Source: Saccoglossus kowalevskii (taxonomy: Eukaryota; Hemichordata; Enteropneusta; Harrimaniidae). Taken from it: DNA of 64,000 nt. The position numbers and the translations under genes are program-made. The stretch spans positions 539,832 through 603,831 of the forward strand of contig NW_003108083.1 of NCBI RefSeq assembly GCF_000003605.2, given 5' to 3'. The first letter of the stretch is position 1; each line of letters opens with the position of its first letter. This document shows positions 12,442 to 58,735 of the stretch, piece after piece. Under the pieces are notes generated by a model. The model saw nothing but the letters and a program-made list of their open reading frames with translations, was not told the DNA's origin and ran no database searches.

Positions 12442-12573
12442 CATCTTAATGGCTTAAATGTAATAAATGACGTCACTGATGATAAAAGTAGCATCGTCCA
12501 TCTTTTTCATCTTAATGACTTAAATGTAATAAATGACGTCACTGGTGATAAAAGTAGCATCGTTCATCTTTTT
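12442..12573. repeat. 66-bp tandem duplication carrying a CRE palindrome
   Basis: Two 66-bp copies (12442-12507, 12508-12573) with three or four differences. Each holds TGACGTCA (12468-12475 and 12534-12541). Because 66 is a multiple of three, an ORF stays open across it, which probably explains the spurious 131-codon ORF here. Confidence 0.85.
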
Positions 12574-12954
12574 TTCGTCAAACCATTTGCTTCGTATATT
12601 AATCACTCTCGATAATAATTGGTAACCTAGGAGATGAGTGAAAGATTATTTCGGAGAAATAAGAGTTGGGAAACTATACGGCGTCGCCAGGTTTATTTAT
12701 AATTGTGCCGGGCTCTTAAAAACCATGTAGGCATGGTACAATTAGGATCAAAATAATGATGAAAATAATCGTGGAAGTTATAATAAGTCCAGAATAGATC
12801 AGTTTTGATAATTTTCTAATAACAACCCGGCAATCAGTTTGGTACAAATTATTGCTGAGTATCGTATAATATGTCTAGAATTAGTATTCGGAATTGTATT
12901 AACTCGAATAATTCTGTTAGTTTCAGATGTCGACTAAATGCATTTGTGATATAA

Positions 12955-13400
12955 ATCAGTGTATATGTGAGACGTAATTTCAAAACCGTGAACATCAATG
13001 CCTTTCTCCTTTGTCTCAAGGCAATTTTATACGGATTGTGAAATTGCCATTAAATGTTTGAATAAATGGTAGAAATATGATTATGAACCACAATAAATAA
13101 AAACACCAGTAGTTCAAAACAATTGCAATTTATTTTAATGTACCCTGTACAGTATATGATAAAAACTTCATTGACTGGATACGGCTTTTGCGGTCCTCTG
13201 TCGTACGACTAACGCAATCTCGTGCATCCGCTGTACAACTTCAGGCCACGTCTGTATCTAGCCCATGAAGATTATTGGAAGCTTTCAAATGGATATAAGG
13301 GATAGACAGGATATCAAACTGGTGACACTGTAATATCCGATTTACTAAATTTGTGTAGTAATTTTCATTTGCTCCGTGTCGAAGACCTTACTCATGAATG
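12955..13400. repeat. Dispersed repeat, copy 1
   Basis: Reads in parallel with 20140-20520. Shared phrases include TATATGTGAGAC, GGATATAAGGGATAGACAGG versus GGATATAAAATACAGACAGG, then ATCAAA(C/T)TxGTGACACTG and TTTCATTTG. The divergence is moderate. Family unknown. Confidence 0.55.
13129..13134 (-). promoter_or_regulatory. First minus-strand AATAAA after the SLC7A stop
   Basis: TTTATT on the plus strand. No AATAAA or ATTAAA was found on the minus strand between here and the stop at 14568. If this is the signal used, the 3' UTR would be about 1.4 kb and would contain both arms of the inverted repeat at 13795-14531. Confidence 0.3.
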
Positions 13401-23326: not shown

Positions 23327-23363
<37 letters not shown>

Positions 23364-25782: not shown

Positions 25783-25813
25783 GGTTTAAGTTCAGTATCA
25801 CAACATTATTTAT
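25783..25813 (-). other. SLC7A 5' UTR part and probable UTR-intron acceptor
   Basis: On the minus strand a pyrimidine-rich stretch ends in TTTTTTGATTTCAG at 25814, giving a plausible acceptor 31 bases before the ATG. A non-coding first exon further right is inferred. Confidence 0.45.
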
Positions 25814-38303: not shown

Positions 38304-41300
38304 ATGTCACGTCATGTTACTATAGAAATATTGTGGTTGGTACTACTTATAGCAGAATTATCAGTAAGTATAACGGGATTTCCCGGCACACCTTAGAAGC
38401 GGTGAGAAACACATTAACCGTTCTAAATGTTGGTACTGCACACATTGCACGGACTTCGGTCTGCAGTGTCGCAATGGCGACGGAATTGATTTCAGACAAC
38501 AATAGACTATTGTTTTTCGAGATTCACGTGACAAACTTGGTACGTGTTTAACCGAGTCCAAACGGTCGGGTCACGGTCTCCTTTCAATGGTTTAGGCACA
38601 GTTCCTTAAAAACTGAGCGCGAGATTTAGCGCTTTCCTATTCAATAGGGTGTGCAGTCATCGTCCTGTTTTCACATTTCTCTACTGGACTTATGTAAAAC
38701 TCGGCAAATAGATTTCGTCATAATACTTAGGCGTGGCGAAAAAAAAAAACATATAAAAGATACATATAAAGATAACTATAAAACAAAAGTTGAAATTACT
38801 CGAGTATAACTGTTACCATATCAATAAACGAAACAATCAACGTCACTTTCTTTGGCAGGAATTCAAAGCAAGGGGTCACGCGGCGCAATTTGTATTATGT
38901 CATTGCTCAATTTACCCTTATTTATGGTGTTATCTACTCTTGAATACTAGTATTTGAGACACATATAAACATAGACCTTATGATATAACCGACAACAACC
39001 TATTCAGTTTACTGCAAGGACCCGCCCGAGTTGTGGGTGGGCGCTTTATTGTTGGCATGCATTTTCACTTCCCGTGGTACTGACTCATACACATACTGAA
39101 TGTGTTCAAAGTTTAATTAAACATGTTATCCGTGGAATGCAAAGCATATTTCATGATCTACATTGTTGAGTTTGTGTTTGTGTCATGGTGGAATGTTAAC
39201 CTGCGACTTTCGAATTCGTTTTTGGGCGCACCCGTGACTGACCCATAGACGAGCACGTGACTATTCAAACTTGATTCGGAAGATCTTGCGAAATCAGTGA
39301 ACGATTATGGTCTCATATGATGTTCTGTTAGCACTGGGGGGGGGGTATATAATGCAAGATGGCGTGGTGGGTCAGTTTAAAATAACCACAGGGGTTTGTA
39401 CAAACTTGCTGAAACACGTAATTGTGTACTGTGTTTTGTGGTCGGTCATTGGAACGCACCAATATGATTGACACTGAAATTATGGATTTGGCCTAAAGGT
39501 CCAAGCTCGCTTGGTTTCGCTGTACACTGTAGCTAAGCGCCTGGGTATTTCGTTTGCAATGAACGTCTCCCCATTACGTATCACTACCAAGGGAGACCGT
39601 GACCTCGACAACCACACAATGAACTTAGGGAAGAGTTTGGTATTTGAAGAGAAGCCAGTGAAACTGTAACGCCATCATAATAACGCTTGTCAGACACATT
39701 CTATACTTTATTTAGTTTATTAGAGACATAATTCTCCAAGCTCAATCTCCAGGATAATTTAAGATGACGCCACCGCTATCACATTCGTCTGATTCAATCA
39801 CCCCCGGCCGGGCCCCACTTCCCTTCATCCAGAACATTTCGACTACTCCAATGTAGGAATAGTATAGCAATATGGTCTCACTGAATAACAATTAGAAATT
39901 ATCTAGTTGCTTCATAATAACTTTGCTGGTGTATTGTGCCCAAATAATCACGAAACTCGGTCTTAACAGTATGTGACAGTATGATAATGAATTTGGTTAA
40001 TTCAAAGTTGAATATTTTTCTTGTGTTCCCGTTACTCAAAATATACTTCAGCCATCACGCGAGACCATAGAATCTCACGTGCCACAAAATCTAAAAACGA
40101 CGAATTACATAACACATTTTCATTCGTCAATATAAATGTCCGCCATGATTTCAAATTGCTCCGAATGTCGTTCATTGCAAGTGCATGCTTAAACTTTGAC
40201 CTGGATCACCGTGACAGAGAGACTGTGCCTGGCTGGATGAAAGTTTTAATTATAATATGATTCATGTAATCCTTCCAGGTCATNNNNNNNNNNNNNNNNN
40301 NNNNNNNNNNNNNNNNNNNNNNNNNNNNNNNNNNNNNNNNNNNNNNNNNNNNNNNNNNNNNNNNNNNNNNNNNNNNNNNNNNNNNNNNNNNNNNNNNNNN
40401 NNNNNNNNNNNNNNNNNNNNNNNNNNNNNNNNNNNNNNNNNNNNNNNNNNNNNNNNNNNNNNNNNNNNNNNNNNNNNNNNNNNNNNNNNNNNNNNNNNNN
40501 NNNNNNNNNNNNNNNNNNNNNNNNNNNNNNNNNNNNNNNNNNNNNNNNNNNNNNNNNNNNNNNNNNNNNNNNNNNNNNNNNNNNNNNNNNNNNNNNNNNN
40601 NNNNNNNNNNNNNNNNNNNNNNNNNNNNNNNNNNNNNNNNNNNNNNNNNNNNNNNNNTTGACACAAGATGGCGAAAGAACTTGAATAAGACATGAAGCCG
40701 TACCTCCATGAATAAGATGAGGGAACAGTTTCCCGGAAGTATTATTTTAGTCTAAATACATTCAAGTTTCATTCTGTACTTTGAAAACAAGAAGGGAAAA
40801 GCAGAAGTTATAACAAATTGTCAATATATCCCGAACTACAAGCAGAGTAATCGTCATTGTTCATACTTTGAAAGAGGAAATGAGAATATATTATCTGAAT
40901 TCCTGCATCTACCCCCGACGTCACCCGGGTTTATCAGTTTCTCGACGACGTATGAGATGTCACGCAATGTGAGCATAACACGTCCGCTATGATAGCCCGT
41001 CTGTAAACATGCTTTCCACTCCGTGAACACTACCCCATGTTACAGCATTTTTGAAAATAACTACGTTATCTTGTTCAATAATGTGGGGGGAAGTTTTTTA
41101 TGCATACCGACAACAATATGAAAATTAGCTAATCAATATAGTTACGTCAGAATTAATTTTTAATTAACAGATGTTCGCCGTGTGCTGATGGTCACTATAT
41201 GACATTTTGGAATCAGTGTGAGCAATGCCAGTACTGTTCAACGTATTGTACAAGTCGATATGAAGTGGTAAGTTGTAGTTATTTCAATAAAAATCTACAC

Positions 41301-43593
41301 ATTGTGTAGTATATAATATGTAGACATAACTAATGATGTAGTCCTACAAGCTGGCGCAAATCATCACGTGACAACACTGAACAGGAATAATTTATGGTGA
41401 ATGATATACCCAATTTGGTCGGACGGAAAAACATACGGGGTATTCCTGTGTAATGGGTATAACTTCCTTAGTTTTCTCAGAGATGGGCAATAATATATAC
41501 ACTTCCTTTAAGACTTCGTGGGGGTCATTTTGAGGGTATTTATTGAATCCACGACATATTTGCACGTACGTATTTGCATATCTGACAATTGGTTATATGT
41601 TCCTGTTTCTGCCGATGTTTCATTCTACCATGGAAGGTACCTTCCATGATTCTACTGATTTCAGTCAACGTTCGAATGTTATGCTATATTGGTTAATAAA
41701 ATAGTGCCTTCATATTTGGTTTCCGACAAATTTATTATTTTGAAACATTTTAAAATAATTATTTAGTTCAGATTAAGACTAGACTTGATTTCCAGTTGCG
41801 AATAATGTCTTCCAGTTGTGTATTCTGCCCTCAACGGTCTATGTTCAAAACGGACATTCACTCTCGTTTTAGGTTGAAAACGAATGCTCACCTACTCAAA
41901 AACGCACGTGCGTGTGCAAAAGAGGCTATTATAAAACAGGCGACTTGTGTAGACCTCACACGAAATGTCCACCTGGTAGTGGTGTCTCGAGAAATGGTAG
42001 GTAAATATTTATTACTAACGTATCAAAATGTGTGGAAAGAGGTCGCCTTTTAAAGTTGCACTGTGAGTATTGATGGTATGAATATGCGCGATATTTAACG
42101 CAACGAATTCACGTATGCTTTCTATTTGATTTAATTTAATTCTAAGGCTTTTGAATCATGTTCTAATCCGCGTGGATTGATTAAGATTTACATTCCCGCG
42201 GTTATTCGGAACAAAAGCGAATCCTCAAATATCCGTTTCATGCAGTGTATGATGACCGCACACCCCGTATTATCATGCTGTGAGAGTGCAACTTTAATAG
42301 AAAAATGCCTTATTTATGTAACAAACACTGAGAAAATTTGAACCAGCTTGTGCACTTTCCCCGAAATCTATGTTTCACATACGCGCGCATACCGGATATG
42401 ACGTGCAACGTGATACTGTGCTCATATTCCCTTTTACCTGATATCAGCAGACTGACAAGTTTGTATTTGACGTCATGACAACGGGCATGCTTCTTGCTTA
42501 CACCCTAGTCTCGATACTTCCAGGTAAATTGTCTACTTAACCCGGCCAGTACCGTTACTTGACCAAAGTAAATTTTTGTCACGTTTTATAAAATTCCACC
42601 CATATTATTCTTTTTTTTTCGCATTTTTTGTTCAAGTATCTAATAGCCAATTACGTCTATTTTCTCTAAATTTATTCGGTAAAAAATTCTCTAGCAACGT
42701 GACCACTATTTGGCCGGAAGGTTTATTGCGCCACTTAACGTGCCGGACGATCCATTAGTTGATCAGCCTTTACCTTGGAGGTAAAAGAGAAGGAGTGAGG
42801 ACGCTATTTAGGCCTGTGTTAATCCTATAAACATCCTTTGTCATCGCTCTGGTTAAACCACTTATCGTTTTTATTTAGGATTCGTTTTATCTACATGATG
42901 ATAGCCGCTTATTTACACATGAGAATGAAATAAATTCCGTTTAAACATCGTCTATAAAATTGAATGCGCAACCATAAATAAAAGCTTTGTGCATGCGCAA
43001 TGACCTTTGTCGGATCACAAAGGTCATTTTACACTTGTAGGTACCGGAAATTCTGCACATGGACGCTTCCAAGATGAGTTACTGATTACTTATTTCCTGA
43101 CATTTTTCATCGCAACAGTCGTCCAACTTTAGGCATTGATAACAAAAAAATCCGCAAATTTCTGCAGTAAAATTTAAAAATACATGATAAGTTTTCTACC
43201 TCTATGATTTAAATAACCATTTTGGCCATCGCATATGAGTACCAATATTCTACTTACTACCACATTTTATCTTTCACAGGTACATCAACCAGAGACGTGA
43301 AATGTGGTAAATGCCGCAAGGGAAGTTACAGCGATGTTTACGACAGCGTCTCGCGCTGCCAACCACACACAAACTGCACAGCCTACAACATGGTCGTAGG
43401 CCATCCCGGCAATGGGACATTTGATGTCACTTGCAGCAGTAATGTTATAGAAGTAGAACCTATTAGTGACAGGAAAGCAAAGAGGTTGCAAAAGAGGAAA
43501 CTTCGCGAAGAGAAAAGGAACCAAAGAAAAATGAAACGCAAAGATAGAAAAGAACGCAGAGGCAGAAAACGTTCTAAGCTGGCCTCAAATTGA
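38304..43593 (+). CDS. Secreted TNF-receptor family protein, osteoprotegerin-like, with polybasic tail
   Basis: Exons: 38304-38363 (signal-like MSRHVTIEILWLVLLIAELS, then GTAAGT), one probably starting at 40279 and lost in the N gap, 41171-41267, 41873-41996 and 43280-43593. The last three have GT/AG ends and matching phases. They encode cysteine-rich domains in the TNF-receptor pattern: CSPCADGHY...CEQCQYCSTYC, ECSPTQKRTCVC...LCRPHTKCPPG, then CGKCRKGSYSD...CQPHTNC and a final DVTC. Spacing and words such as CPPGxGV and HTNC are closest, by eye, to osteoprotegerin (TNFRSF11B) and DcR3. There is no membrane segment or death domain. The last 41 residues hold 23 Lys/Arg, a likely heparan-sulphate or matrix binding tail. 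Sequons: NGT twice and NCT. The signal exon is linked by position and phase only. A decoy role is inference. Confidence 0.8.
40284..40657. other. Assembly gap (N run, 374 bases) over a probable exon
   Basis: CCTTCCAG at 40271-40278 is a good acceptor and only GTCAT follows before the Ns. The TNF-receptor gene lacks a first cysteine-rich domain exon, and the gap lies exactly in the interval where it is expected. Confidence 0.9.
41629..41648. repeat. Perfect 20-bp palindrome
   Basis: CATGGAAGGTACCTTCCATG, in the intron before the second visible TNF-receptor repeat exon. The outer arms resemble those of the 32-bp palindrome at 47529-47560. Confidence 0.95.
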
Positions 43594-43842
43594 AGGTTTC
43601 TCAGAGTTTTTGCCAAGGATTATTATTTTTGGCGTTAGGGGGTGCCTTCAATTATCAGACAAATAATAATTTAATATCAATATTTTAATATTGGAAACTA
43701 TATCGTATTTTTACACCGAATAACATATCTGAAGTAGCGTTTTTTATGAGTGAACAAAATATATATATGTATATATATATATATTTGTCTGATATATATA
43801 TCAGACTCGTCTTTTTGATAATGTGAATATATTTTATCTGTC

Positions 43843-43848
43843 AATAAA
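43843..43848 (+). promoter_or_regulatory. Poly(A) signal of the TNF-receptor gene
   Basis: AATAAA 250 bases after the stop codon at 43591-43593, followed by T-rich sequence. A palindromic (TA)n stretch GTCTGATATATATATCAGAC lies just upstream at 43787-43806. Confidence 0.6.
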
Positions 43849-44111
43849 ACTGACTTTATGTTATTAATTTGTCAAAATCGGAAACTGCCCCATTTATTTA
43901 TAGATATTATTTATTCTAAATATGTATTTGTGAATATTTAATCAAAGTGATCTTAAGGTTGGGTATTTTGTATTTTGTCAACTAACGTCGGGCTTGTATT
44001 TCTTGTCTCAGTGTGATATGGCAATGAAGAGGCAAAGATAGATATGTTTATTTGTAAACAATTTTGCATAAATATACTTTGATGACATACAGGTCACTTA
44101 TTGAAATCACT

Positions 44112-44275
44112 TTAACCGGGGGAGTCGTCACCTACGCATGCGTCAGATGGCCGTATCGTTTTTTGTTTACAAATAAGCGTCTACCCATCTTGAGTATTTG
44201 CGTGTATAGCGTGCGGCGTTATCGTCGCTTAGGAATTATCCTGCGTATGTAAATGACGACCCCTTTCCGCTTTAA
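44112..44275. mobile_element. TTAA-flanked MITE, subfamily B, copy 2
   Basis: TTAA at 44112-44115 and 44272-44275. In reverse complement it matches 23688-23848: AAGCGACGATAAC, GGGTAGACGCTT, then GGCCATCTGACGCATGCGTAGGTGAC. The two copies have opposite orientation and diverged interiors. Confidence 0.8.
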
Positions 44276-44929
44276 AAGTCGTTCGAGATCAAGTTACGCC
44301 CTCACTGTCACATTGTGCTCTCTGGTCTGTTTCAATCGCGTCTTCTCGGGTGCAGATTTGGCTCATTAACTGTGAACAGTGCTTATACCACCAAGTATGA
44401 AGCCTTACCAAATTCTGACTGTTCATACATTTTTGTTGCTGTGTTTCCTGATAACCTGACGACGTTTCTATTGGTTGATTCAAACTTATGTATATTTTTT
44501 ATATTTGCAATGTAATTCATGTTTGCATCTTATCGTCTTATTAAAGATCGCATTTTTCATAAAAAGTGAAACTTTATGTTTTGAATTAAGAAAGCACTTG
44601 AAAATAAATACACGCGGTTGGATGTATTGCGTTGCTACTGAGCGGCATTTATTTGACCAATCGTCGGTAAGTGGTGACAAATCAATTGACAATTTTCAAG
44701 TTATAGCGCCCTCAGTCGATGTTCCGCGCGCAATTTATAGTAATCGCTTTCCCTTGCGTTCTGGTGAGCTGTCGAACGTTTACCCTAGGAAATCACCCCT
44801 CTCCCCACGCAGACAAAATTGGAAAGTTTTCACACCAGAGGGCGCAGGTTTCTAGGTAACGGTGGAACACACGTTTCACGTAACATCACATTGCGTACAT
44901 CACGTAAACTTTCAAAATTGGTAAAATAC
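44276..44929. other. Non-coding stretch, nothing recognised
   Basis: An ORF of 126 codons (44475-44855) shows no domain, no splice context and no relation to neighbours. The text TAGCGCCCTCAGTCGATG and AGAGGGCGCAGG suggests repeat fragments. Confidence 0.35.
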
Positions 44930-45830
44930 AAATCATTAAATCAGTTGTTATACCCAAATTTCTTTATATGTTAAATCGGATTAATATTAATCAATCTGAT
45001 GTCAAAAAGATTAATTCAAAAATATGGTGGGTTAGGGATGTTGGATATTTGTGCTATGCAGAAAGCTTTTAAAATTAACTGGGTTAAAAGGTATTTGTCA
45101 TCATATTGTCATCCATGGAAACGGTTCCTAGATCTTTATTTAAAACCTCTTGGGGGAAAATTAATTTTTAGATGCAACCTCTCAATAAACACACTACATA
45201 TTAAATTACCACCGTTTTATTGGGAAATGCTAAATGTATGGAGTAATGTTACACAGTATGAGTTTATTTCCCCTGCGTATGAGATAATATGGAATAATAA
45301 AAACATTCTTATTCACACAAAATAAAAGTATATTTTATTCAGATTTAAAGGATCTAGTAATTGTTTATATAGCTGATGACATCTTTAATGAGGAGGGTAC
45401 GGTTAAATATTGGAATGACTTAAATACATTGGATTTAAACCACATTCAGTTTCTACGATGGCAGGGTCTCATTGCGGCTATCCCTAAAGACTGGAAAATA
45501 AGTAGACCAGTTAATGTGCGGCCAGATCCTCCAATCAGTGTATATGGTCGAAAGCAAATGATTAATCTCTCTAACTGTACCCCAAAATTCAGCCGTAAAC
45601 TCATCTCTTCTGATTTTTTTAATTATTCCATCTAGTCAGTCCTTCTTTAGAGACTTATTGTGGGCAGAAACTGGATGGGATTTTTTCTATTCAATGCCAT
45701 TTTTTGTTGCAATTTGCAGTACTCTTTCTGAATCTCAATGGAAATTAAACCATAACATCCTGTATACAAATGCTATGCTATATCACTTTCAATCACCTTT
45801 AAAATATTGAAAACGCCACTCGTCCCTGCA
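44930..45830 (+). mobile_element. LINE ORF2 remnant (C-terminal half)
   Basis: Translation from 44999 gives YGGLGMLDICAMQKAFKINW and LPPFYWEMLNVW. After a frame change near 45325 it resumes with DDIFNEEGTVKYW and HIQFLRWQGLIAAIP. GGLG..D......A.K..W followed by a G.......FL....L...IP block is typical of the region after the reverse transcriptase fingers-palm in non-LTR elements. Frameshift and stops show it is dead. The fragment at 5740-6080 covers the next protein segment of a similar element. Confidence 0.75.
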
Positions 45831-47528
45831 AGTTGATTGTCTTGGCAATGATACCACAATTACGAAAACGTAATGATCTCAAATCTCCATTTGCAAAAAT
45901 TACAAAAGGGGATCTTTTGAAGATTTCAAAATCACGAGAGTTCCCCCCGATCGCGAGATCCGGATTTCTTGATTTGTATCTAGAATCTTCGAAAGTGTGA
46001 CTATATATACAAGTTACTACAAAACTATACTGTATATTTATACGAAATTGTCATTACGTTTATACCTTGTATGGATGTCGTAATACATGCATAAACAAAC
46101 TTCAGTGACACCAAAGGCTAGTTCTGGCAGTTCCATATTAAGTTGTTTATAAAATTCATAGAACAGACACAGACAGCATTGCAATATAACATTTCAATCA
46201 ATTAATTTAGTTAAAATTATATACATGAATTCATAAATACGCGATCTATTTTCCTTGCCTGTATCATTGACGCCGTGTTCCACGGGCTCCGGATGTACTC
46301 CGGATGTACTCTGGGAAGCACGCATCTAGTAGCCGCGGGGATTGAATCATTTTTAACGCTGATATTGTGCTAATCATTTCCAGATATGAAATGGATAATA
46401 GCACGATATTCTCATGTTTGCTTTAATCTTGTAATTACATATAATATACAAGCGCAGTGTCTTGAATATTTTCCGGATATCACTACGTTGATATATCACA
46501 TTGCGCTGTGTTCCAAATGTATATCGTACCGTGGAGGGCAGCATACCGTTGCCCCGCCTGTAGTCGTGCACGTCACGGTGAAGAAAATGTTGTACGCGAA
46601 CTATATGACGAATGAAAACACCATAATTTTGCACCGCGTATTACATTTGTAGCCTGACATTTAGACGTGAGTAGGCCCTCGCCAGGCGACCGGCATCAGC
46701 CTTCACTGTATTAGGTTTGGAGCACGGCGGAGGGCGCAATTCACGCGACCTCGTCAGATTAATTACATTTGATGCTCAAATGAAACTGATCACCATAGCA
46801 ATCAAGCTATGGGGCATCGCAATTGTTGTGTAAAAAAAGACGATGTGACATCAGACGTGCTTTTCTTTTTTCAAAAATACTGAAGGAACAGTGTTGGTAC
46901 ATTATAAAACGTACGCAAGAACGATATTCTATGCTCTATGTTGTATTTTGAATGCCTGTACTGCTGTTATTTGATTTATTTATTTATTTATGGGACAAAG
47001 CTAGACGTTGATGTAGTAATATATCCCTGCCTAATAAGTAAATTTTGCTGGCCGGAAGTGCATCTTTCGTGTGCAAGGTAGTTATGTAACCAGTGAATTC
47101 GAAACACGTCTCAGGCTCCGATTCGCTTCAGTGTGCGCCTTCTAGAGTCGACGACCAAGAATATTTTTTTTTTCGTGGAAGTCAAAGATACGGCATTTCG
47201 CTTCTATCGACAATCAGCAAATTAACATCTTTGCATTTTCCGCCATGACAAAACAGGAGTATTTTTGCACCTCAATCACGCTACTTCCGGGAAAGTGGTC
47301 CATGACAGAAGAACAGACTACACACTCTCTGTATTCATACCGTCCGCACTACTAGCATGACGTCATTCTGAACAAATTAAACGGTCACATTGAGGTAACT
47401 GGTAGTATGTTTTGTTATTCTAATTCAATGTGTACATAAGTAAACAAATTGGACAAAGTACAAACAACTGTTTCAATAAAAAAAACGCTCGATCACGTTA
47501 GAGTCCGTCTAACCATGGAGCTGCAGAC
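45831..47528. other. Non-coding stretch
   Basis: No gene recognised. A short tandem, TCCGGATGTACTCCGGATGTACT, lies near 46289-46311. Overlapping ORFs on both strands at 46374-46652 are unsupported. Confidence 0.4.
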
Positions 47529-47560
47529 CATGGAAAGTACTAACGTTAGTACTTTCCATG
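47529..47560. repeat. Perfect 32-bp palindrome
   Basis: CATGGAAAGTACTAAC followed by its exact reverse complement, centre between 47544 and 47545. It can form a cruciform. GTTAG words in the flanks (47499-47514 and 47566-47572) suggest a wider decayed foldback. Confidence 0.97.
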
Positions 47561-48448
47561 ACCAGACTAACGCCAGATCCTCTTTATATTTCGTAATGTT
47601 GCCTACAGTGTGTCGACAGAACTGGCAATCAGCTAACACATTGGAGTTGTCCCCGCAGATACATAGTCCTATAGGGTAGGTAAACAATCATATTCCCAGT
47701 AATGTATGCATAAGGAATACAAATCTATAATGTTGATATTTTACACAGCATATATATTCGGTCGAGGCCGAGTCTCAACAATAAGCCATTTGTGGGTTGC
47801 AAGTATCATTTGACGTCAGAATCCGTCCGTTGTTGTGTTCCAAGATTTCTATCGATTTGAATAACAAGCACTGGTTATATCGCCACGTATGACACATACG
47901 GTAGAATACGAAATTCTTTAGCAGCTGACTTGCTACGTGTTGTGATGACGACAGAGGAAACGAATACTAGTACGATCTTTATAGAGGATGCTAACTAACA
48001 ATCCTTTTCTAATCTAATCGAGCACAATCACGTGGTCGTTCCCGGGCCAAGTTCGTGATTTTGTTGTTGTTTGAGTCGCTCTTCTCTGTGACGTCATTTT
48101 TTAAAGCAATGAAATAATCTAGTCACATGACAGTGAAATACAAAATATACAGTTTACGGACATGAGGCCTTTTAGAATTGACCTCTTCAATATTCACCAT
48201 GTCTAGCAGCAAACGATGTTTTCATTTAGTTATGCAACATTATTCAAAGTGAACATGACACTGACCAACAGCGACCACTAATCGCCGTACTTTTCACTAC
48301 ATCCGTCATATGTTTCATTCATTCCTCTCCAAACTATTTCATTTCAAAGTTATGTGATTGTTGTTTATTATGTACTTTGTTGTGGAATGCCAGCTGGAAG
48401 TCAATCGATGCGTTGCTTTATATGCCAAACAAGATCCCTTGATTCCAT

Positions 48449-48540
48449 GTACTGTTGATGACGTCACTACACTGGTGTTAATGACGTCACTATATTAATG
48501 CTGATGTCATTACTACACCGTTGTTGATGACGTCAGGGGC
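48449..48540. repeat. Cluster of CRE palindromes in a degenerate minisatellite
   Basis: TGACGTCA occurs at 48459-48466, 48482-48489 and 48528-48535, with a variant TGATGTCA at 48502-48509. Units of about 20-26 bases share (G/T)TTGATGACGTCACTACAC. No gene start is recognised next to it. Confidence 0.75.
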
Positions 48541-48776
48541 TCTGTTGCAGCATCTACAAAGTTATTAGTTTTCGTTGTATCTTTCTCCAAGTTTTTGAAA
48601 GCTGGTCATGAGAAAAAAAAGAGAAAAACGCTACAGTCAGGTACGAATATTAGAAACGCATTGTGAGGGGGGGGGGATTAATGGGGAAAGCTGGCCGTTA
48701 TCTGAAGGAGTGGTCAATGATGTTACACAGGTGTTATAGAGTGAGGACAGTTTCATCCCGAACTTTACCGAGATTT

Positions 48777-48899
48777 CAACTATCGGTGGTAGTCATCGTG
48801 CGTGTTCGATTTTGATGTAAACAATTTTACATGCGTTGTGTACGTCGCTGTGAATCTCATATCGAAACAGGACGCGGTACGAAGACCGCCGATCTTTAA
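48777..48899. mobile_element. MITE, subfamily A2, reversed copy
   Basis: Reverse complement reads TTAAAGATCGGCGGTCTTCG, then ACCGCGTCCTGTTTCGATATGAG and GCGACGTACACAACGCATGT, matching 19038-19160. The other end, CTATCGGTGGTAGTCATCGTGC, lacks an intact TTAA. Confidence 0.65.
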
Positions 48900-49739
48900 T
48901 ATTGGAACTAACTAACTATTGAAGCTAACACCAGTAGTAGAAGTGCATTGACCCCACCTTCATTGGGTAAGCAACATTTAAAAAAGCTGTATTTAATATT
49001 GAAATGTATATAATGATTAATGTGATTAATAAACAGGTCTTACTCTTAACCGTACGACCACGACTCAACGCTGAGAAGGAAATACGTAAAACAATTGAAT
49101 GCCTCTCGTTTTCTAACCACTCAGTGTTTTTTGTCGATCAGGCTAATCAAAATGATACGGGAAACGTATCAATGGTTGAGCTACCGTTTGAAACATCGGT
49201 TGTGATAAATGAACCCATAGTTAAAGACGATAAAGACGACTGATTCATCTATCCAAGTCGTTGAACTCGCTGATGAATTATCCTTGGCGTGGGCAATTTA
49301 GAAAAGCGCTCAGAAAGATTCGATATCGATCGACTGTTTTTCTGCATCACGTCATTCTACGGAAAACTCGAAGTAATTGCTCTTTTGTGGCATTAAGTCG
49401 TGGTTACACAGAGGTGAACGACCAAATGTATACAAAGTGTAATAAACACAACAGTTTAAAGTGCACGGGCAGTGCAAATTACGAAAAAGGAACATAGATA
49501 CCACCACTATAATGTATTACAATGAGCGGGAAAGCTGTAAGAAATTGAGAAACAACTGGTACGAATGAACTGCAATGGAGAAGTACGTGATGAGAAATGG
49601 TGATTCAAATCACATTCTGGAAAGAGGGTTTATAAGAAATTACGATATGGTTACATTACAGGGATTCCTTTACACCGGTACAAATACACTGAGGTCGGCG
49701 CACGTGAGCATATCGGCTACGTCACAGTTAAATCTTGTC

Positions 49740-49879
49740 TTGAAGCAGTTGTCGTCGTGACGTGCGCGTTCAAAATGTACGTGTAAACAAGCATTATAAA
49801 CGTATTTTACAAGCATGGAATAGCATGGAACCATTGTTGAACAGCGATATAAAGCGGCGCAACGACCACCGTCCTTCAA
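49740..49879. mobile_element. A-family MITE with mutated TTAA ends
   Basis: Ends TTGAAGCAGTTGTCGTCGTGACG and, inverted, TTGAAGGACGGTGGTCGTTGCG. The interior differs from A1 and A2. Confidence 0.55.
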
Positions 49880-50915
49880 CGTCGCAGTGTTACGTGTGTT
49901 GTTCTAATAGGTTATTACTCCCGATAGAGTGGTTCAGTTATGATGAGAATTGAAGATAAAAATGTGCATTATGTGCGCTAGAGCTGGAAATACACATCAA
50001 CGTAACAGCGAGGCGTGCGTGTGCGCATGCATCGCGTGACTTTATTTTCTGAAAGATAAGGGTGTATTCGGAGGATATGGTTGTGAGCTTTAAAACACAC
50101 GTGAGTAGTATATACTAGTTTCGGCTGTGATCTCATTTCCGGTTAGAATGTACAGTTGGCAAAACCGTGCGTAATAGTAAAATTGATCTTATTTATTCTA
50201 CAATTTCTGTTACGCCGCGTACGCTGTTTGTGCGCTGTCAATTGGAAAAGCTTTCAGAATAAGTATAACATTATAATTATCTCCTCGCTCGCTCCCCATG
50301 GAGAATTCAAACGAACTATACTTTAACAGCACAATTTAAGACGTAGTGAAGACCTTTTATCAGCCGAAAGCGTGAATATACCACATAACATCGACAGCTG
50401 AACTTACACAACTCAGAGTCTACATGCTCCATCGAGGTGGAAATACTACAAAACTTTCCACTACCGCTTTCGAACATGACTGAATTTGTCCTCGATTTTA
50501 GTCCTACAACAAAGTGACATTCAACACATTAACAATACGCACCGGAACCACAATCATATTGAATGAAGTGGTAATGTCATCTCTCAAAATATCTTTGGGA
50601 AGTCTGCAACGTACGTTGGAATCAAGGAGTAATGAAGAGACTGATAACACGGGTTTATTATTAAATTCAACCACGGGCCCTTATAACGGCATGCTATAAA
50701 CTTGTGATGCGCTCGGCTGAGTTCGCCACTAAAGGTCAAACTAAATATTGTTCGAGTATTTGTTTTTTTATATGATTATGCTAAAATGTGCATGACATTG
50801 TACCATGATAGTATATAACTATCTGGTGTAAGATCCTAAATAACACGTAAAAATGCAAATATCGCACAAATAAATGTGATCACAATTCCACCCAGACAGC
50901 AGCGTGTGGTTTCGC

Positions 50916-51098
50916 GTCACGTTGGACTTACTTGCAGTCTGTTGCGATTCCGATGAAAAGGGGTGACCGCCACGAAATGTTGGGATTTCGCGGTCACATG
51001 ACCTCCGCGTTCACCCCTCGTTTACGTAATTCATATTTATTTTTTAAGAATTTTTCATCGGAATCGCAACAGACTGCATGCAAGCAAGTCTACGTCAC
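50916..51098. mobile_element. Nested foldback element downstream of the mGluR exon
   Basis: A 26-bp perfect inverted repeat (50934-50959 and 51052-51077) extends imperfectly outward to 50916 and 51098. Inside lie AGGGGTGA (50959-50966) against TCACCCCT (51011-51018), and GTGACCGC (50963-50970) against GCGGTCAC (50990-50997). The element ends about 80 bases from the donor of the last mGluR exon, in the downstream intron. Confidence 0.85.
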
Positions 51099-51180
51099 GG
51101 TGGACTTCACTACAAACACTGACCGAGACATCGCTCATCTTGGGTTGATTACAAGTGTGAATATGTTTAAATATACTTAC

Positions 51181-54100
51181 GCTCAGTTTGTATCGTATGT
51201 CTGACCACTTCGGAGAAGGTTCTCCTTGTCTGGATGCCAATTGATGTACCCCCATCACTGCCCATCACACAGCCCCTGGTATTGCGATCTGGTCGTATTA
51301 AAATAATATAGAGTTTTGGAGCAAAGATACAGCAGAGTATTACGGTTGCACATAGTCCAACAGACACGCTTAATGTGGTCACTCGTAAGGCCACGTTGCG
51401 TGAACTAACAAAATAAATAGGTACAAACGACAGCCATATCACGCATGTGGTGTACATGCTGAATCCAATGTATTTAGCTTCGTTAAATCCCTCCGGACAG
51501 TTTCGTGTTTTGAATGCATAGACGGTACAGAAGACCATTAAAAAGAAAGGGTACATCAACCCTATGAGATAGGTGGCGTCCGTGGCACCTGAGCACGTCA
51601 ATTCGTTCTTTTCCCGTACAGGGTGGTGATACGTAGTCCTAGGGGGTTGAAACGCAAACCAGGCTCCTAGAACAACAAACTCGACGCACATGATACATGT
51701 GCATATTACAAGTTGCGAAGTGGGGCTGATATATTTTGTGTTTTTCACCGACGATTTCGCTCTGTCGAATATTCTGGCAATGCGATTAGTCTTTGTTAAC
51801 ATGGCCGCATAGCATAATGTGAAACAGAACCCGATTCCGAATTTGGTTGCAGCACACGTTGCCACGGAGGGTTTTGCAACCACGACAAAACTGATGACGT
51901 AGCTCAAAAAGATCCCCACAAGAAGTACGTACGTCAGCTCACGCCCGGAAGCTTTGACGATCGGCGTGTCGTTGTTCTTGATAAACACCACGATAACGAG
52001 AGATGTAACAATGACGCCAGCGGTGGCAAAACACAGTACACCGATTCCCCATGAACTGTCGTACGTAACATATTCCTCTGGTGAGTCGATGCATCCATCT
52101 CGGGCGTAGTTAGGAAGAGTTCCGATTGGACAATCGTAACACGTGAATTCGTTCATCAAATATTGATACTTGTTACATTCCGTGCACACCCAGCAACAGA
52201 CGTCTCCTTCTTGTATTAACTTAACGTGCCCTCTAGGGCACGGCTGACTACAGATCGAATCCGGGTAGTTAGGCTGAGAAATGGTGAACTGAATTTTATC
52301 GGAGTTGAGGTAGAGGTGGCTGTTTTCATACTTCCCCACTTCAGACCAGCGGAAATCTCCAGGAGCTACTTGCAAAAAGTTGAATATTTTATATCTGGCT
52401 GGTCCGTCGCCATTTTGTTGGAACTCGAAATCGTGTTTGTTGATACCTACATAAACAGACAAAAAAAATCATCATTTTTCAGGTTCAAGAGTAATTTGTA
52501 TTCAACTGCTCAATCTTTTTTTCTATTTGGACAGCATTTCCCTCTGTAACTACCATGACGAGTATATGAAATGGACAATCTGTAATTAAAAAAACCTAAT
52601 GTATTTATTAAATGTAGTGTGGTATAAGTACATAATACCCTTTCCGTGTAAACCTGTGATAGGATATCTTTTGTAAATGGTAATATTAATCTTTTAAAAT
52701 GAACAGATCCAGTTTCTGCTGTCTCGAACGGAGTTTGATTAATTGTAACGGGATAATATTGATCCCTTCCATCCTCATAACGCCACAAATCATGGTACTC
52801 GTCTGGTTAGCTTAGACAGCCTTGTAGCTAAATTAGTTTTCTGTCGAGCAAGTGTTAAGTGCCCGCGCAGAAAAGCGTGAATTAAACATTACGATATCCT
52901 GATACACCATTCTAATAAACAGTGCCATCTAGTGATGAAACTCTACCGTGATATCACGTTGATGAATGTAAGAAATGTCGTGTCAAATACACAACTGAGA
53001 AGTTTTTCGTAATTGAGAATTGAGCAAATCGGTAAATACTCTGTAACTGTATTGTTTATTGGCGAGTGACACAAAATAATATCGTCGCTGTGAACGACGC
53101 CCTCAGATCGATTTAATTAATGTTAACGCGCTTCGTCGCTAGAGGGCGCGACTTAAGAGAACGATGCACCACGACGTGCTGAAGTTTAGTTTGAAATAAC
53201 TTATAACTATGTGCTGTTTCGAATTGACGTTGAGATTTATTAATTTAAAAAGTAACTGCAAACTAAAAGAGAGCTACCCGAATAGGGAAACGATGATTTT
53301 ATGATTATCTAATTGCGTTAATAATGACAAAATGCATAGAACTTTGGTTCATTATTCAACACCGTTCCGGTACCACATTTGTTTCACAGCTAGTAATTTA
53401 GCAAAGTTTCAGGAAATTCCTATTGGAAGTGTGTCACTCGCGTCGACAATGAAAACTAAATGCCCTGTCTATGACCTGCTCATTACAAAGATAAGAAACG
53501 ATAGATATCTCGATGAACGGGAAGTCATTGTAGTGCCATGATGTGCACTCTATACATAGTACGGCTATTCGAAACCTGAACAGTGTCCACAAAGCTCCTG
53601 ATTCAGACATTCAGCAAAAGTCTGACTCGCCCGATTGGCGTCTCCCACTAGTACAGTGCGTTATACTTCGGTTTACCGTATTCGTTTCTGCGTTCTGTAA
53701 ATTTAGTTTTTCCATAGGTGGTCTCGAAATTTCAATGTAAATATGTTTACCTGTGAATGATACTTTTTTCAAGTTCTCCAATATCTGCGCACCAGTCATC
53801 TGTTTCATCAGAGGGCACATGCCATAATAATCCTCTCCGCAGAATTTCCGTTGAATATCATTGAACGCATGCGCGAATGCTAGAACCGCATCAGCAACGA
53901 ATTGCATCTTGGGAGAAGTTTGTTCATATCTCCCATGTTCCTGCAACGTGAAATTGGCATTACATAGGGGCATACCAGCATTAAACTTGCTCTCTAAGTT
54001 TCCCGGCAGTCTGCACTGAAATATATCCTCCCAGTACTCTTCAAACCACGGGTTTCTTTCGTTCGATGATGGTGTTAATTTTACAAAATGTTCATCAAAT

Positions 54101-56744
54101 TCGTGAACAATTGAATACAGAGGGCTAAATGCTATTGCGCCCTCAACGTACTCTTCACGGTCGCGTACGACATCTTTATTTCCGCTCCAGCCGTCGCTCC
54201 CGATCCAGACGAATTCGCCGGCTGTCTTGGCTCGTTTAGCGGCTTGCATAAGAGGTTTGACATCTTGCTCCAGTGCAAACACGACAACAGCTGCAAAAAC
54301 AGAACAGGAGATCAAACGATTAAACAATAACATAAAAGTGTTATTAGTTTGCCACTTGCCCTTTCTATTCTCAATACAAAATTCGACATATAAGTGATAT
54401 GCGGCTCGATTTCAAATTTATTGTTGCGATATAAATTTATGTCTCAAATGTCAAGACGCATCACGTAAATGTAGCACAAAAAGATCAACTATTTCCCAAG
54501 AAGCACCTTAAATCTAACGCAAAAAACCAAGCGTTGTTTCCCCCTCAGTCGTAAAAACATAATTCATTTCCTTGTCTGTCTACTTTGCACATGCGCAGTG
54601 TCGCTGAATGATTAGTTACCTTGACCACGATTACTGTGTTTTAGCTTGTGATTCATTTCAAAGGATTAAAGCTATCACACAACTTAGATCATAGCTGCTT
54701 CGAGGTAGAATGCGAGCAAGTAATCGGTGAATGTCGTGTATGTGGGATCGGTTGAGGAATTCACTAATGATTCGCGCGTTAATACAGAATACTGATGGTT
54801 TGTGTTTTTATCATCGCAACTTTGCGCTGTTTATTGGTGCATGTAGAGAATACAAGAATATATTATGTCGTCTTGTTTTACCTTTCGCGTTCCGCTTTTT
54901 CCTCAAATTCATTATTATTTTATCAAAATCGGCATCTGTCGCTAGTTTCTTGTCGCGGGGGATCTTCTCTGAGATAGCAATGCAGATATCCCTCGCCTTC
55001 GCCTCTTCTTCTACTTCGGCAAAACCATTGCTACCATAATTAGAGTCCTCGTACACAACGGATATATAAGTCCAATTAAAAAACTCTACTAAATCTATTA
55101 TGGCCTTGGCTTGATATATGTCTGACGGCACTGTGCGTAAAAAATATTCGAATCTCTCTTTATTGCTCAGCTCTGGACTGGTGGACCAATAACTAATCTG
55201 TTGGGAAAGTACACATAATTGCAGGATGTGTTTGCATCCAATCTCTATTCACGTCATAGACCGTCCAGCAGTCTCGTTCATAACAAAAAAAAGTTTGTTT
55301 TGGAAAGTAACTCAATGCTGTTGTGTTGGGATTCGGAGGAGTCGACATCTTAATAATTTTAGCTGGTGGAGACAAAACTAGCACTGAAAGGATTTCAGGA
55401 AAAAAATATTTGGCGTCTTTCCATCTCGTACATATACTGTGGTTACCCTCCCCCTCCCCCACGGTGAACAGAATGTACTTTTTAATCAGCACCAACTGGC
55501 AATTAACACATAAATACTTGCTGAAATGTACATCGGCTTATTCAGTGCAACTTCTAAAAAAACTGTGCGTTCAGAGCGTAAGGACTTCACACGTCGAGAA
55601 AGCCAATACATGTGTTTTACTAACGGTGTATTTAAAGAAGTTATTGAATTTCGACATCAGTTGACTCGGTTAATGAGACAGATATACGAGTTTATCAACT
55701 GTTATTTGACGTACTTAGTGTCAAGGTAAGCTGACATATCTGCCCACTTTGTCTGTCATCACGGCTGACTACTTATCATCTAACTCATTACTAGCCATGT
55801 GGCAATCTAAATATTATTCCAATTCAATTTAACTCTATCCTTTGCGTGAGCTTATAAATACCGCCACCGTGAGACCACCATGCGACGCATGATGCATAGT
55901 GGCGCATGCCTCGTATAATTTTTTTTTCTAAAACGGTTTATTGAATACAACGATTGGTTCACTATTACTAATCCAACTATGTAACATGCACCCAGTTATT
56001 CGCTAACGATTCAACTGGACCGCTTATCAAAGGGCGGTGGTCGTCGCGCCACGCATGCGCGAGATATGGGATTCATATGAACGAAGATGGAAATTTTTAC
56101 TGTTGCGCAGACTAACTAGTACAAACTGAGACATTACTAAACTTTAACTATATAATTTATTTGGTGATTGGAAGGTATCGAAGAAGACATCATCGGTGGT
56201 AATTCGTGGTCGTTGCGCCCAGGTCAAAACACGTACTCGTGATTTCCATTATAATGGCGCATCGGATTGTGGAAAAATCAATGTTTATCAACACAAATGT
56301 CGAACATGCGAGACGCGACGACCACCGGCCTTTAAAACAAATTGTCAATGTGTATTCAATTAGAATACGTGTGTTATATTCAAACACAAATGGCGTTAAC
56401 TGACCTAAAAATGTCTCTCAAAAATTAAAAAAAAAAAAATTGACCTGTTTTTTATTTAACTAAAGAAAGGTATTACAGTTTCAGAAAAAAAAAACTACAA
56501 CTTGTCTTTGAACTTTCGTGACCTACCTGAGGTATCCTGAATAATCTCAATAGGTTGGCAATTTGCACAGATACGACGCTAGAGGACGCACCAACTACCC
56601 CGGATATTGTAACCTGGTCTTGGACGGACCCATCAGAACACACGCATTGCCCTTCACTGCCAAGCGTGCTCGCACCCCGAATAAAATCGACCGCCTCCTC
56701 CAAGGCGCGTGCGTCACTATCACAGCTATCCACCAAATGAGCAC
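51181..56744 (-). CDS. Metabotropic glutamate receptor (class C GPCR), four internal exons
   Basis: Exons in order: 56527-56744, 54882-55197, 53751-54290, 51181-52446. Phases match and give 780 codons without a stop. The first three encode most of the Venus-flytrap domain, from GAHLVDSC through GVVGASSSV, IPQISYWSTSP, VPSDIYQA, NWTYI, NYG, IGSDGW, NPWFEEYW and SPKMQFV. The last holds the cysteine-rich linker and seven membrane segments, with GRELTYVLL, LLTKTNRIARIF, ISPTSQ, KTRNCPEGFNEAKYIGFSMY and FAPKLYII. Amino-acid contact positions equivalent to T188, D208, Y236, D318 and K409 of mGluR1 are kept. The R323 position is not, as in group II receptors, which the IARIF and NCPEGFNEAK words also resemble. 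The first exon (signal peptide) and C-tail exon were not found. Glutamate as ligand is inferred. Confidence 0.93.
56029..56338 (+). mobile_element. MITE, subfamily A1, copy 2
   Basis: About 310 bp, ends AAAGGGCGGTGGTCGTCGCG and, inverted, AAAGGCCGGTGGTCGTCGCG. It is the full-length partner of 15650-15955. It lies between mGluR exons 56527-56744 and 54882-55197. The right flank keeps TTTAAA; the left has ATCAAA. Confidence 0.75.
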
Positions 56745-57314
56745 CTAAAAACAGCGAAAACAAAATAGTGTTATTAAAGTCGTGAACACACAGCCATTGG
56801 GGCGTACAAATCCGTGAAGCATTTTGTTATTTGAGTCGATAAAAAAAATGCAAATTCATTATTTCAAATAAATATGTGTTTAAAACCTTCCCCATGGCTG
56901 TGGTTTAGACATTTAATTCTTTACCCTAAATACGCGAGCCATCGAACGTTTGTGTGTGTCAGTTTGCAAGGAACCTGTTCGACATCATCAAGTTTACTAT
57001 CTATAAGTACACAATTGCGGAGTAAAAGCAATCGTATTTGTAGAGAAAATGAGACGTGTATGATGATGTTTATAAATAATACATATCACGTAACATCTAG
57101 CGCATTGTATGCACGTATACTATGCATAAGTCAGTGATATACATGTGTTGAACTACGACTTGGTCAGCATGCATGGTTTATTATGGTTCATTTGACCCTG
57201 CAGATTAGCGGAGCTGCAAAATGTGTTTATAACTTACATAACATACTGTAGATTTGCGATGTTGCTTTGTACATTACCTCAACCCTTAACACTATCCATA
57301 GGCATGAAGCATTC
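56745..57314. other. Non-coding stretch right of the mGluR exons
   Basis: Expected to be intron of the mGluR gene. No first exon with a signal peptide and matching phase-1 end could be found here. Confidence 0.4.
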
Positions 57315-58735
57315 ATATGTATATATACGCTGTGTACTCCCATAGTGCGCATACACTCACAGTGCGCATATATACGCTGTGTACACTCATAGTGGGCATC
57401 TACACGCTGCATACACTAACAGTGCGCAACTATACGCTGCGTACACTCACAGTGCGCAACTATACGCTGCGTACACTCACAGTGGGCATATATACGCTGC
57501 CTACACTCACAGTGCGCATCTATACGCTGCGTACACTCACAATGCGCATCTACACGCTGCGTACACTCACAGTGCGCATCTACACGCTGCGTACACTCAC
57601 AGTGCGCATCTATACGTTGCGTACACTCACAGTGCACATCTATACGCTGCGTACACTCACAGTGCACATCTATACGCTGCGTACACTCACAGTGCACATC
57701 TATACGCTGCGTACACTCACAGTGCACATCTATACGCAGCGTACACTCACAGTGCGCATATATATGCTGTATACACTCACAGTGCGCATCTATACGCTGC
57801 GTACACTCACAGTGCACATCTATACGCTGCGTACACTCGCAGTGCGCATATATACGCTGCGTACACTCACAATGCGCATCTACACGCTGCGTACGCTCAC
57901 AGTGCGCATCTACACGCTGCGTACACTCACAGTGCGCATCTATACGTTGCGTACACTCACAGTGCCATCTATACGTTGCGTACACTCACAGTGCACATCT
58001 ATACACTGTGTACACTCACAGTGCGCATATATACGCTGCGTACACTCCCAGTGCGCATATATACGCTGCGTACACTCACAGTGCGCATCTACACGCTGCG
58101 TACACTCACAGTGCGCATCTATACGCTGCGTACATTCCCAGTGCGCATATATACGCTGCGTACACTCCCAGTGCGCATATATACGCTGCGTACACTCATA
58201 GTGGGCATCTACACGCTGCGTACACTAACAGTGCGCACATATATGCTGCGTACACTCACAGTGCGCAACTATACGCTGCGTACACTCACTATGGGCATCT
58301 ATACGTTGCGTACACTCACAGTGCACATCTATACACTGCGTACACTCACAGTGCGCATATATACGCTTCGTACACTCACAGTGCGCATCTACATGCTGCG
58401 TACACTCACAGTGCGCACATATATGCTGCGTACACTCACAGTGCGCATCTATACGCTGCGTACACTCATAGTGCGCATCTGTACGCTGCGTACACTCACA
58501 GTGCGCATCTATACGCTGCGTACACTCACAGTGCGCATACATACGCTGCGTACACTCACAGTGCGCATACATACGCTGCGTAACGTCACAGTGCGCATCT
58601 ATACGCTGCGTACTCTCACAATGCGTATCTATACGTTGCCATTCCTACAGTGTGCACCTTAAACGGGACGTACTCTCACAGTGCGTACTTATATCCTGCC
58701 CCACAGTGCGCACATATACGCTGTCTACTCCCTCA
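57315..58735. repeat. 30-bp minisatellite, more than 40 units
   Basis: Consensus unit CACTCACAGTGCGCATCTATACGCTGCGTA. From 57361 to 57960 every unit is exactly 30 bases. One unit near 57961 is a base short, after which the register holds to about 58600 before decaying. Variants recur in blocks, for example runs with GTGCACATC at 57631-57740, and 57481-57630 resembles 57841-57960. Because 30 is divisible by three and the unit has no stop in several frames, it creates long ORFs on both strands (up to 427 codons) that are not taken as genes. Confidence 0.97.

Follow-up and report, generated by a model that had tools for sequence, protein, structure and literature searches.

Does the acorn worm Saccoglossus kowalevskii possess a secreted decoy receptor of the TNF receptor (TNFR) superfamily and, if so, was this receptor inherited from a distant ancestor or did it arise within the acorn-worm lineage? 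This question is raised by a gene located within a stretch of 64,000 nucleotides of the S. kowalevskii genome (the window). A sequence-only reading of this gene had proposed an osteoprotegerin (OPG)-like soluble receptor with a polybasic tail that could dock on matrix, representing either an ancestral-type or a lineage-specific decoy.

Exons of the gene and the gap in the first intron

The features of the gene are summarized in Table 1. The inner exon borders are AG/GT, and the last three exons are joined in frame to encode 177 amino acid residues. Exon 1, which is followed by the donor GTAAGT (score 5.1), is hydrophobic and located at the right place for a signal peptide, and may function as such, with its link to the cysteine-rich domains (CRDs) running through a sequence gap. 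The exon chain of the sequence-only reading is incomplete, because exon 1, ending in phase 0, cannot be spliced directly to the 97-nt exon, beginning in phase 2, and a gap of 374 N lies between them. An acceptor AG is located at 40277-40278 (TCCTTCCAG), at the left edge of this gap. No CRD1-like exon is detected when the readable sequence of intron 1 is searched for open AG...GT stretches with the cysteine pattern of CRD1. The exon for CRD1 is probably hidden in the gap, because the phases conflict, an acceptor is present at the gap edge and intron 1 contains no other candidate. Thus, the gene probably contains four CRDs in all, of which CRD2-4 are seen and CRD1 is deduced from the phase and the gap. 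A second copy of the gene that bridges the gap is not seen in the genome, in which the three strong matches represent the window itself. A search of the window against Rfam gives 0 matches.

Table 1. Positions of the gene features in the window
Feature	Positions	Strand	Description
Exon 1	38304-38363	+	ATG, hydrophobic core, signal-peptide-like, MSRHVTIEILWLVLLIAELS; ends in phase 0
Probable first-CRD exon	40279-40657	+	Almost entirely within the 374-N gap at 40284-40657; inferred
CRD2 exon	41171-41267	+	97 nt, phase 2 to 0, CSPCADGHYMTFWNQCEQCQYCSTYCTSRYEV
Exon for CRD2 end and first half of CRD3	41873-41996	+	124 nt, phase 0 to 1
Terminal exon	43280-43593	+	Remaining CRD3, CRD4, linker, polybasic tail, stop codon TGA
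Polybasic tail	43468-43590	+	41 residues, 23 Lys/Arg
Polyadenylation signal	43843-43848	+	AATAAA, ~250 nt past the stop codon

Cysteine-rich domains and the polybasic tail

The three TNFR-type cysteine-rich stretches noted from the sequence are recovered by Pfam TNFR_c6, which matches the joined protein in 3 stretches with an E-value of 3.7e-14. When the genome is searched exon by exon, the window gene is missing from the 6 genome-wide TNFR_c6 matches. The match of the joined protein and its alignment with PDB chains across CRD2-4 place it in the TNFR superfamily. In the PDB, 37 sequences are matched at the threshold of E = 1, and those of DcR3 and OPG head the list, with E-values of 3.2e-27 and 3.0e-25 for the best and second-best molecules respectively, in agreement with the proposal that the CRDs are close to those of OPG. 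RANK (TNFRSF11A) and CD40 are also matched, with E-values of 4.6e-21 and 1.4e-13. The best full-length alignments begin at chain residues 38-53, past CRD1. Kinship with the nerve growth factor receptor, which the sequence-only reading had named as one contrary outcome, is rejected, because p75NTR (TNFRSF16) is matched with an E-value of 0.002, as compared with that of DcR3.

The tail contains 5 Asp/Glu besides its 23 Lys/Arg and is followed by the stop codon, as had been read. Among the 13,431 stop-free 41-residue segments in the six frames of the window, 23 Lys/Arg are reached by 5, all of them at this locus. Read in its other two forward frames, the tail contains 11 and 13 Lys/Arg, and 23 Lys/Arg are reached by 6 of 20,000 dinucleotide shuffles. 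The tail looks coding, because its basicity is frame-specific and beyond that of the shuffles. The frame comparison and the shuffles also make it unlikely that the tail is a by-product of a purine-rich tract. When the terminal exon alone is modelled by single-sequence AlphaFold2, the tail is predicted to form one long helix (pLDDT of 73, 88, 95 and 89 for successive blocks of exon residues 61-100), in a model whose mean pLDDT is 63.4 overall and whose CRD part is poor. No relative of the tail is found in this genome among the best candidates, and excerpts from the literature on invertebrate soluble or OPG-like TNF receptors do not describe the tail of this gene.

Instead of anchoring the protein on matrix, the tail may serve in processing or as a module of some other kind, being cleaved at its many basic sites in the secretory pathway or binding to DNA or to microbes. 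The protein region encoded by the terminal exon contains 5 RXXR sites and 13 dibasic pairs, 12 of these pairs within the tail, and a strict Cardin-Weintraub heparin-binding motif is absent from the tail, as this possibility would allow. However, it contains 0 furin-type RX[KR]R sites, and the nearest functional relatives, DcR3 and OPG, have C-termini that bind heparan sulphate. We therefore regard such a module as conceivable, but clearly the less likely role of the tail.

A membrane-type relative in the same genome

The best other match to the window gene in the genome is a gene on C2597, here called by that name. It shares the 97-nt and 124-nt exons with the window gene, with identical lengths and phases, and the intron between these exons is absent in all 4 readable own-genome relatives of the 7 examined. 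C2597 differs from the window gene in that a transmembrane exon, in compatible phase, and a death-domain frame of marginal score are located downstream of its CRDs. The phase-1 end of its CRD4 exon is matched by the phase-1 acceptor of the transmembrane exon, which lies 2.96 kb on. Arithmetically, direct splicing of exon 4 to the transmembrane exon is in phase, and splicing of a stalk frame (a candidate exon 5) to it by the donor tried breaks the frame. The death-domain frame, 6.6 kb on, scores 21.2 bits against Pfam Death, as compared with the cut-off of 22.6, matches RIPK1 (E = 0.0074) and TNFR1 (E = 0.034) in the PDB, and is missing from the 55 genome-wide matches. C2597 thus appears to be a membrane-type receptor, and the splicing of the marginal death domain to it is putative.

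The exons of the window gene that are seen carry no membrane segment, as had been claimed. It might nevertheless be that a donor within the last CRD exon connects the main transcript to downstream exons, with the tail restricted to a minor soluble isoform. C2597 splices onward after CRD4, and the terminal exon of the window gene contains weak donors, for example at 43439 (score 1.6) and at 43307 (score 5.7, within the CRD). However, no convincing transmembrane exon is found on the forward strand at 43594-51170, where the only two hydrophobic windows above 1.9 are weak (2.02 and 1.93). No relic of a transmembrane segment or death domain is detected by tblastn with the transmembrane exon and death-domain frame of C2597 in the window plus 9.2 kb beyond it (best E = 0.21). 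Likewise, no death-domain-like sequence is found in the window with the death-domain frame of C2597 as a query (best E = 0.50). The polyadenylation signal shortly past the stop codon and the coding appearance of the tail also argue against a minor isoform, which we consider very unlikely.

The phylogeny of the CRDs against known receptors weakly joins the window gene with C2597, which are paired in the best tree with support of 84/88. They are paired again (71/74), with long branches meeting, in a larger tree that took in 4 of the 15 other own-genome matches. The association with OPG suggested by the sequence-only reading is not rejected, because AU tests leave standing a clade of the window gene with OPG (p 0.176) and one with OPG and DcR3 (p 0.199). 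Identities to the window gene give no clear nearest relative (TNFR2, 40%; DcR3, 39%; OPG, 38-39%; C2597, 38%). By tree path, the window gene is nearer to DcR3 and OPG than to C2597, which has a long branch, and in a shorter alignment OPG is closest to it both by identity (41%) and by path. For the larger tree, a single clade uniting the 6 acorn-worm rows is neither the best solution nor rejected (p 0.156). RANK and CD40 are grouped with the acorn-worm genes C149 and C290 (91/91, with long-branch warnings). The trees were built without any EDA receptor, and none (EDAR, XEDAR, TROY) is among the 37 PDB sequences.

These results bear on the possibility that the gene is derived from a soluble receptor of the OPG/DcR3 type in the deuterostome ancestor and that C2597 represents a separate branch. 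The rank of DcR3 and OPG as best matches, the shorter path to them and the AU tests are in accord with it. However, membrane-type C2597 also matches DcR3 and OPG first, shares with the window gene the lengths and phases of two exons and an intron that the four readable relatives lack, and is its partner in the best trees, and the tail has no relative among the best candidates in the genome. Such an ancestry is quite unlikely. Quite improbable as well is the reading in which an OPG/DcR3-type soluble decoy was present before hemichordates and chordates diverged, and the gene keeps a simple early plan of CRDs and a basic matrix anchor from a time before vertebrates acquired death-like domains or other C-termini. 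An ancestral-type decoy is thus not supported, because C2597, which ranks first among the other matches in the genome, is of membrane type and has the same exon plan, and because the trees join the two genes. Of the two origins offered earlier, the lineage-specific one fits best.

Decoy layout and proposed function

On balance, the gene probably encodes a secreted, lineage-specific decoy of the TNFR superfamily, which is derived from membrane-receptor stock and tethered near cells by its tail. The protein would consist of a signal peptide, probably four CRDs and, past a short linker, a polybasic helix of 41 residues, and would have neither a membrane segment nor a death domain. The decoy would have arisen in the acorn-worm lineage from a membrane-receptor stock common to C2597; the membrane and cytoplasmic exons of the C2597 type are absent, and the last CRD exon ends in the basic tail. 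Its CRDs may bind one of the TNF ligands of the animal without signalling, and the tail may retain the protein on heparan sulphate or other polyanions, such that it acts as a local sink. Much like human DcR3, the product is probably a matrix-bound sponge for death or inflammation signals. At the exon level, 7 TNF-domain matches are found on 4 contigs of the genome, which show only that ligand genes exist. The proposed layout of a soluble decoy with a basic tail is supported, and docking on matrix is a plausible role for the tail. If the gene is expressed as read, one invertebrate deuterostome genome combines a TNF receptor of membrane type with a soluble tailed relative that has the same exon plan. 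This would point to repeated origins of decoy TNF receptors that reached one design, in which ligand-binding CRDs are combined with a basic tether, and would provide a testable receptor/decoy pair outside vertebrates.

Human DcR3 (TNFRSF6B), the best PDB match, is likewise soluble, without a death domain and with a basic C-terminus. Its CRDs are only 39% identical to those of the window gene, and its tail is shorter and far less basic than the acorn-worm tail. A novel layout is not supported, because DcR3 already has this soluble, death-domain-free plan with a basic C-terminus. OPG (TNFRSF11B) is also a soluble decoy with the same cysteine layout of CRD2-4, but contains death-domain-like regions; two such regions after the CRDs are not seen in the window gene, in which the stop codon follows the tail. 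The layout is that of DcR3 rather than that of OPG. In published papers, DcR3 is described as soluble, without a transmembrane segment, and with four CRDs and a C-terminal heparin-binding domain (PMC12884390), and OPG as having two regions with similarity to death domains (PMC7674686). A TNFRSF11-like receptor of S. kowalevskii, TNFR11L (XP_006819214.1), is included in a paper on Wengen (EMBO J 2024; PMC11377715), and could be the product of the window gene, of C2597 or of another gene. RANK and CD40 are also members of the TNFR superfamily, but differ from the window gene in the pattern of CRD2-3.

Visible exons and the first cysteine-rich domain

The window gene lies on contig C253 (window at 539832-603831) of the genome (572 Mb, 4,830 contigs). 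Exons 41171, 41873 and 43280, designated by their starts, form a single joined frame of 177 residues, in which Pfam matches three TNFR_c6 stretches, in agreement with the three cysteine-rich stretches of TNF-receptor type seen in the sequence-only reading. When its exons are considered singly, the gene is absent from the six genome-wide TNFR_c6 matches at E <= 0.001. When the part containing cysteine-rich domains (CRDs) 2 to 4 is searched against PDB, the best match is DcR3 (3.2e-27), followed by osteoprotegerin (OPG; 3.0e-25 and 1.9e-24), DR6 (1e-22), RANK (4.6e-21), TNFR2 (2.5e-18) and CD40 (1.4e-13); 37 sequences are matched at E < 1, the final ones (0.44-0.59) being unrelated. p75NTR is matched with E = 0.002 only, so that kinship with nerve growth factor receptors, which would have spoken against a decoy receptor, is not borne out.

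Positions of the exons of the window gene and its sister gene, and of other features (donor scores from our simple matrix)
Feature	Location	Position	Strand	Length	Donor score
Window gene, exon	window	38304-38363	+		5.1
Window gene, exon	window	41171-41267	+		9.7
Window gene, exon	window	41873-41996	+		8.1
Window gene, last exon	window	43280-43593	+
Sister gene, exon	C2597	87342-87246	-	97 nt
Sister gene, exon	C2597	84829-84706	-	124 nt
Sister gene, CRD4 exon	C2597	82603-82361	-	243 nt
Class A GPCR	window	3456-7543	+
Amino-acid permease exons	window	17861-25785	-
Two frames resembling LINE end	window	44975-45632	+
Group II-like glutamate receptor gene	window	51170-56826	-
Minisatellite	window	57352-58639
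TNFR exon cluster	C2602	447088-465481	-

The best full-length alignments start 38-53 residues into the vertebrate chains, indicating that CRD1 is absent from the visible window gene. The complete protein probably contains four CRDs. The sequence-only reading implied that exon 38304 is joined to exon 41171, but the former ends in phase 0 and the latter starts in phase 2, so that direct joining is impossible. Between these exons lies a 374-N gap (40284-40657), the left edge of which carries TCCTTCCAG, with an exon start at 40279. No CRD1-like exon is detected when the readable stretches of intron 1 are scanned; the top phase-0-to-2 candidates contain three cysteines and have poor acceptors. A second copy of the locus covering the gap is not found among the 18 genome matches (three window exons and 15 more distant ones).

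Polybasic tail and 3' end

The tail (43468-43590) contains 23 Lys/Arg, as counted previously, and 5 Asp/Glu in its 41 residues. At least 23 Lys/Arg are present in 5 of the 13,431 stop-free 41-residue segments in the six frames of the whole window, all at the tail locus, and the remaining forward frames of the tail contain 11 and 13. Dinucleotide shuffles give at least 23 Lys/Arg six times in 20,000, two of these six being stop-free. Because the basic count is frame-specific and rare in shuffles, the basic character is a property of the reading frame; it is unlikely that the tail is a side effect of a purine-rich tract. Neither of the heparin-type motifs XBBXBX and XBBBXXBX is present in the tail. 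The last-exon protein contains 13 dibasic pairs, of which 12 fall within the tail, and five RXXR sites; RX[KR]R is absent. In a single-sequence AlphaFold2 model of the last exon (mean pLDDT 63.4), residues 63-102 form one helix, with means of 73, 88, 95 and 89 for the ten-residue blocks of residues 61-100. This helix is weak evidence, because charged runs are easily modelled as helices. None of the 15 other genome hits extends into the tail (query end <= 129).

An AATAAA is located about 250 nt 3' of the stop codon. Two hydrophobic stretches above 1.9 are present on the + strand of 43594-51170 (2.02 at 50150 and 1.93 at 46926), and tblastn with the stalk frame, TM exon and death-domain frame of the sister gene against the window and 9.2 kb beyond gives a best E of 0.21. 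An alternative long form spliced out of the last exon may exist, because this exon contains weak donors at 43307 (score 5.7, inside a CRD) and 43439 (score 1.6).

The frames resembling a LINE-type element end were recognised by reading and have no Pfam match at 0.001. The next recognised gene, on the opposite strand, encodes an mGluR2/3-like receptor; its frame 51170-52468, with the 7TM part within one exon, matches mGluR2 best in PDB (5.7e-116), and the remaining frames, which extend to 56826, are assigned by reading.

Sister gene and descent

The best genome match outside the window (1.1e-7) is the C2597 gene. Its 97 and 124 nt exons are identical in length and phases to their window-gene counterparts, its third exon starts in the same phase, and CRD2-4 are 38% identical. 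The CRD4 exon ends in phase 1, and a TM exon with a phase-1 acceptor begins, by our arithmetic, 2,955 nt on. About 6.6 kb on lies a marginal candidate death-domain frame (Pfam Death 21.2 bits against a cut-off of 22.6, E = 3.2e-4; in PDB, RIPK1 0.0074 best and TNFR1 0.034), which is missing from the genome-wide death-domain matches. These number 55 (exon-level, E <= 0.001), a large repertoire. For the C2597 CRDs, the leading matches are DcR3 (7.4e-16) and OPG (4.8e-15), with TNFR2 and DR6 next; RANK drops to 5.1e-4, in contrast to the window gene. Because C2597 also matches DcR3 and OPG first, resemblance to decoys is a trait of this CRD type and does not prove decoy descent.

Exon limits were checked in seven further hits in this genome, of which C149, C290, C365b and C365c are informative; C365a has an in-frame stop, and C58 and C689 cover other parts. 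In all four readable relatives, CRD2 to mid-CRD3 is a single open frame, and the phase-0 intron common to the window gene and C2597 is absent. A phase-1 donor is present close to where the window gene has its phase-1 junction (scores 10.2 for C149, 10.6 for C290, 4.9 or 8.9 at two sites for C365b and 9.9 for C365c). The exon plan common to the window gene and C2597 is stronger evidence for their pairing than the trees.

In a tree of nine rows (window gene, C2597 and seven PDB chains; 130 columns), the window gene joins C2597 (84/88, not starred). This part of the phylogeny called for by the sequence-only reading thus favours C2597, but grouping of the window gene with OPG (p-AU 0.176) or with OPG and DcR3 (0.199) is not rejected; p-AU is 0.147 for DR6 with the window gene and 0.313 for the window gene, C2597, OPG and DcR3 together. 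Identities to the window gene are 40% for TNFR2, 39% for DcR3, 38-39% for OPG, 38% for C2597, 37% for DR6, 34% for RANK and 30% for CD40, and path lengths are 4.22 to DcR3, 4.26 to OPG and 5.8 to C2597, whose branch is very long. A second tree with four own-genome relatives added (thirteen rows, 77 columns, long-branch warnings) again pairs the window gene with C2597 (71/74); OPG is closest to it by path (4.12) and identity (41%), and one clade of all six acorn-worm rows is not rejected (p 0.156). Neither tree settles the descent of the window gene. CRD2-3 of the TNFR genes on C149 (locus L012) and C290 (L019) join RANK and CD40 (91/91, with long-branch warnings), a hint that several CRD types found in vertebrates are older than this group.

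Possible function and other features

The soluble receptors OPG and DcR3 capture TNF ligands, and DcR3 is not known to have a death domain. The layout of the window gene is that of DcR3 and is thus already known; the point of interest is a possible independent origin. By analogy, the protein would be secreted, would bind a TNF ligand and would be tethered by its polybasic tail. Seven exon-level TNF-domain matches on four contigs suggest that the animal is likely to have TNF ligands. According to the cited papers, DcR3 is soluble, with four CRDs, a heparin-binding domain at its C-terminus and no transmembrane segment (PMC12884390), OPG has two death-domain-like regions (PMC7674686), oyster TNF receptors lacking a death domain have been published (PMC4346834), and the role of such invertebrate receptors is an open question (PMC4979521). 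S. kowalevskii TNF receptors have also been published: PMC11377715 includes in its tree a 'TNFR11L' (XP_006819214.1) of this species, which may be the window gene or another gene, and finds CRD support too low for orthology between distant phyla. In the literature searched, outside which most subscription papers lie, we saw no soluble TNF receptor of an invertebrate described as carrying a polybasic tail.

The single exon tested from the C2602 cluster (loci L001, L002, L004 and L005) matches p75NTR best (1.2e-14). The mitochondrial contig C4830 has 17,037 bases. Among ten protein frames examined, cox1 is the sole - strand frame; 10917-12038 and 12208-13254 are nad2 and nad1, by reading of conserved stretches. 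In the cox1 stretch aligned to a query typed by us, three of four ATA codons are at isoleucine and one is at valine. A single AGG codon is present across the ten stop-to-stop frames, and AAA is at lysine positions of nad1, by reading. For Saccoglossus kowalevskii, PMC3121625 gives AUA as Ile, AAA as Lys, AGG as missing, COX1 as inverted and ND1 or ND2 as transposed; the present genome is accordingly assigned to S. kowalevskii or a very near relative.

Elsewhere in the window, the permease frame 21877-22269 matches Pfam AA_permease_2 (1.3e-8); the other permease exons and the identity as a cationic amino acid transporter are assigned by reading. The Class A GPCR probably has at least two exons; its first frame matches 7tm_1 (2.2e-21), and PDB matches of the two joined frames are scattered across aminergic, melatonin and opsin receptors. 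The minisatellite consists of 43 copies of a 30-base unit, and its long open frames look like repeat artefacts.
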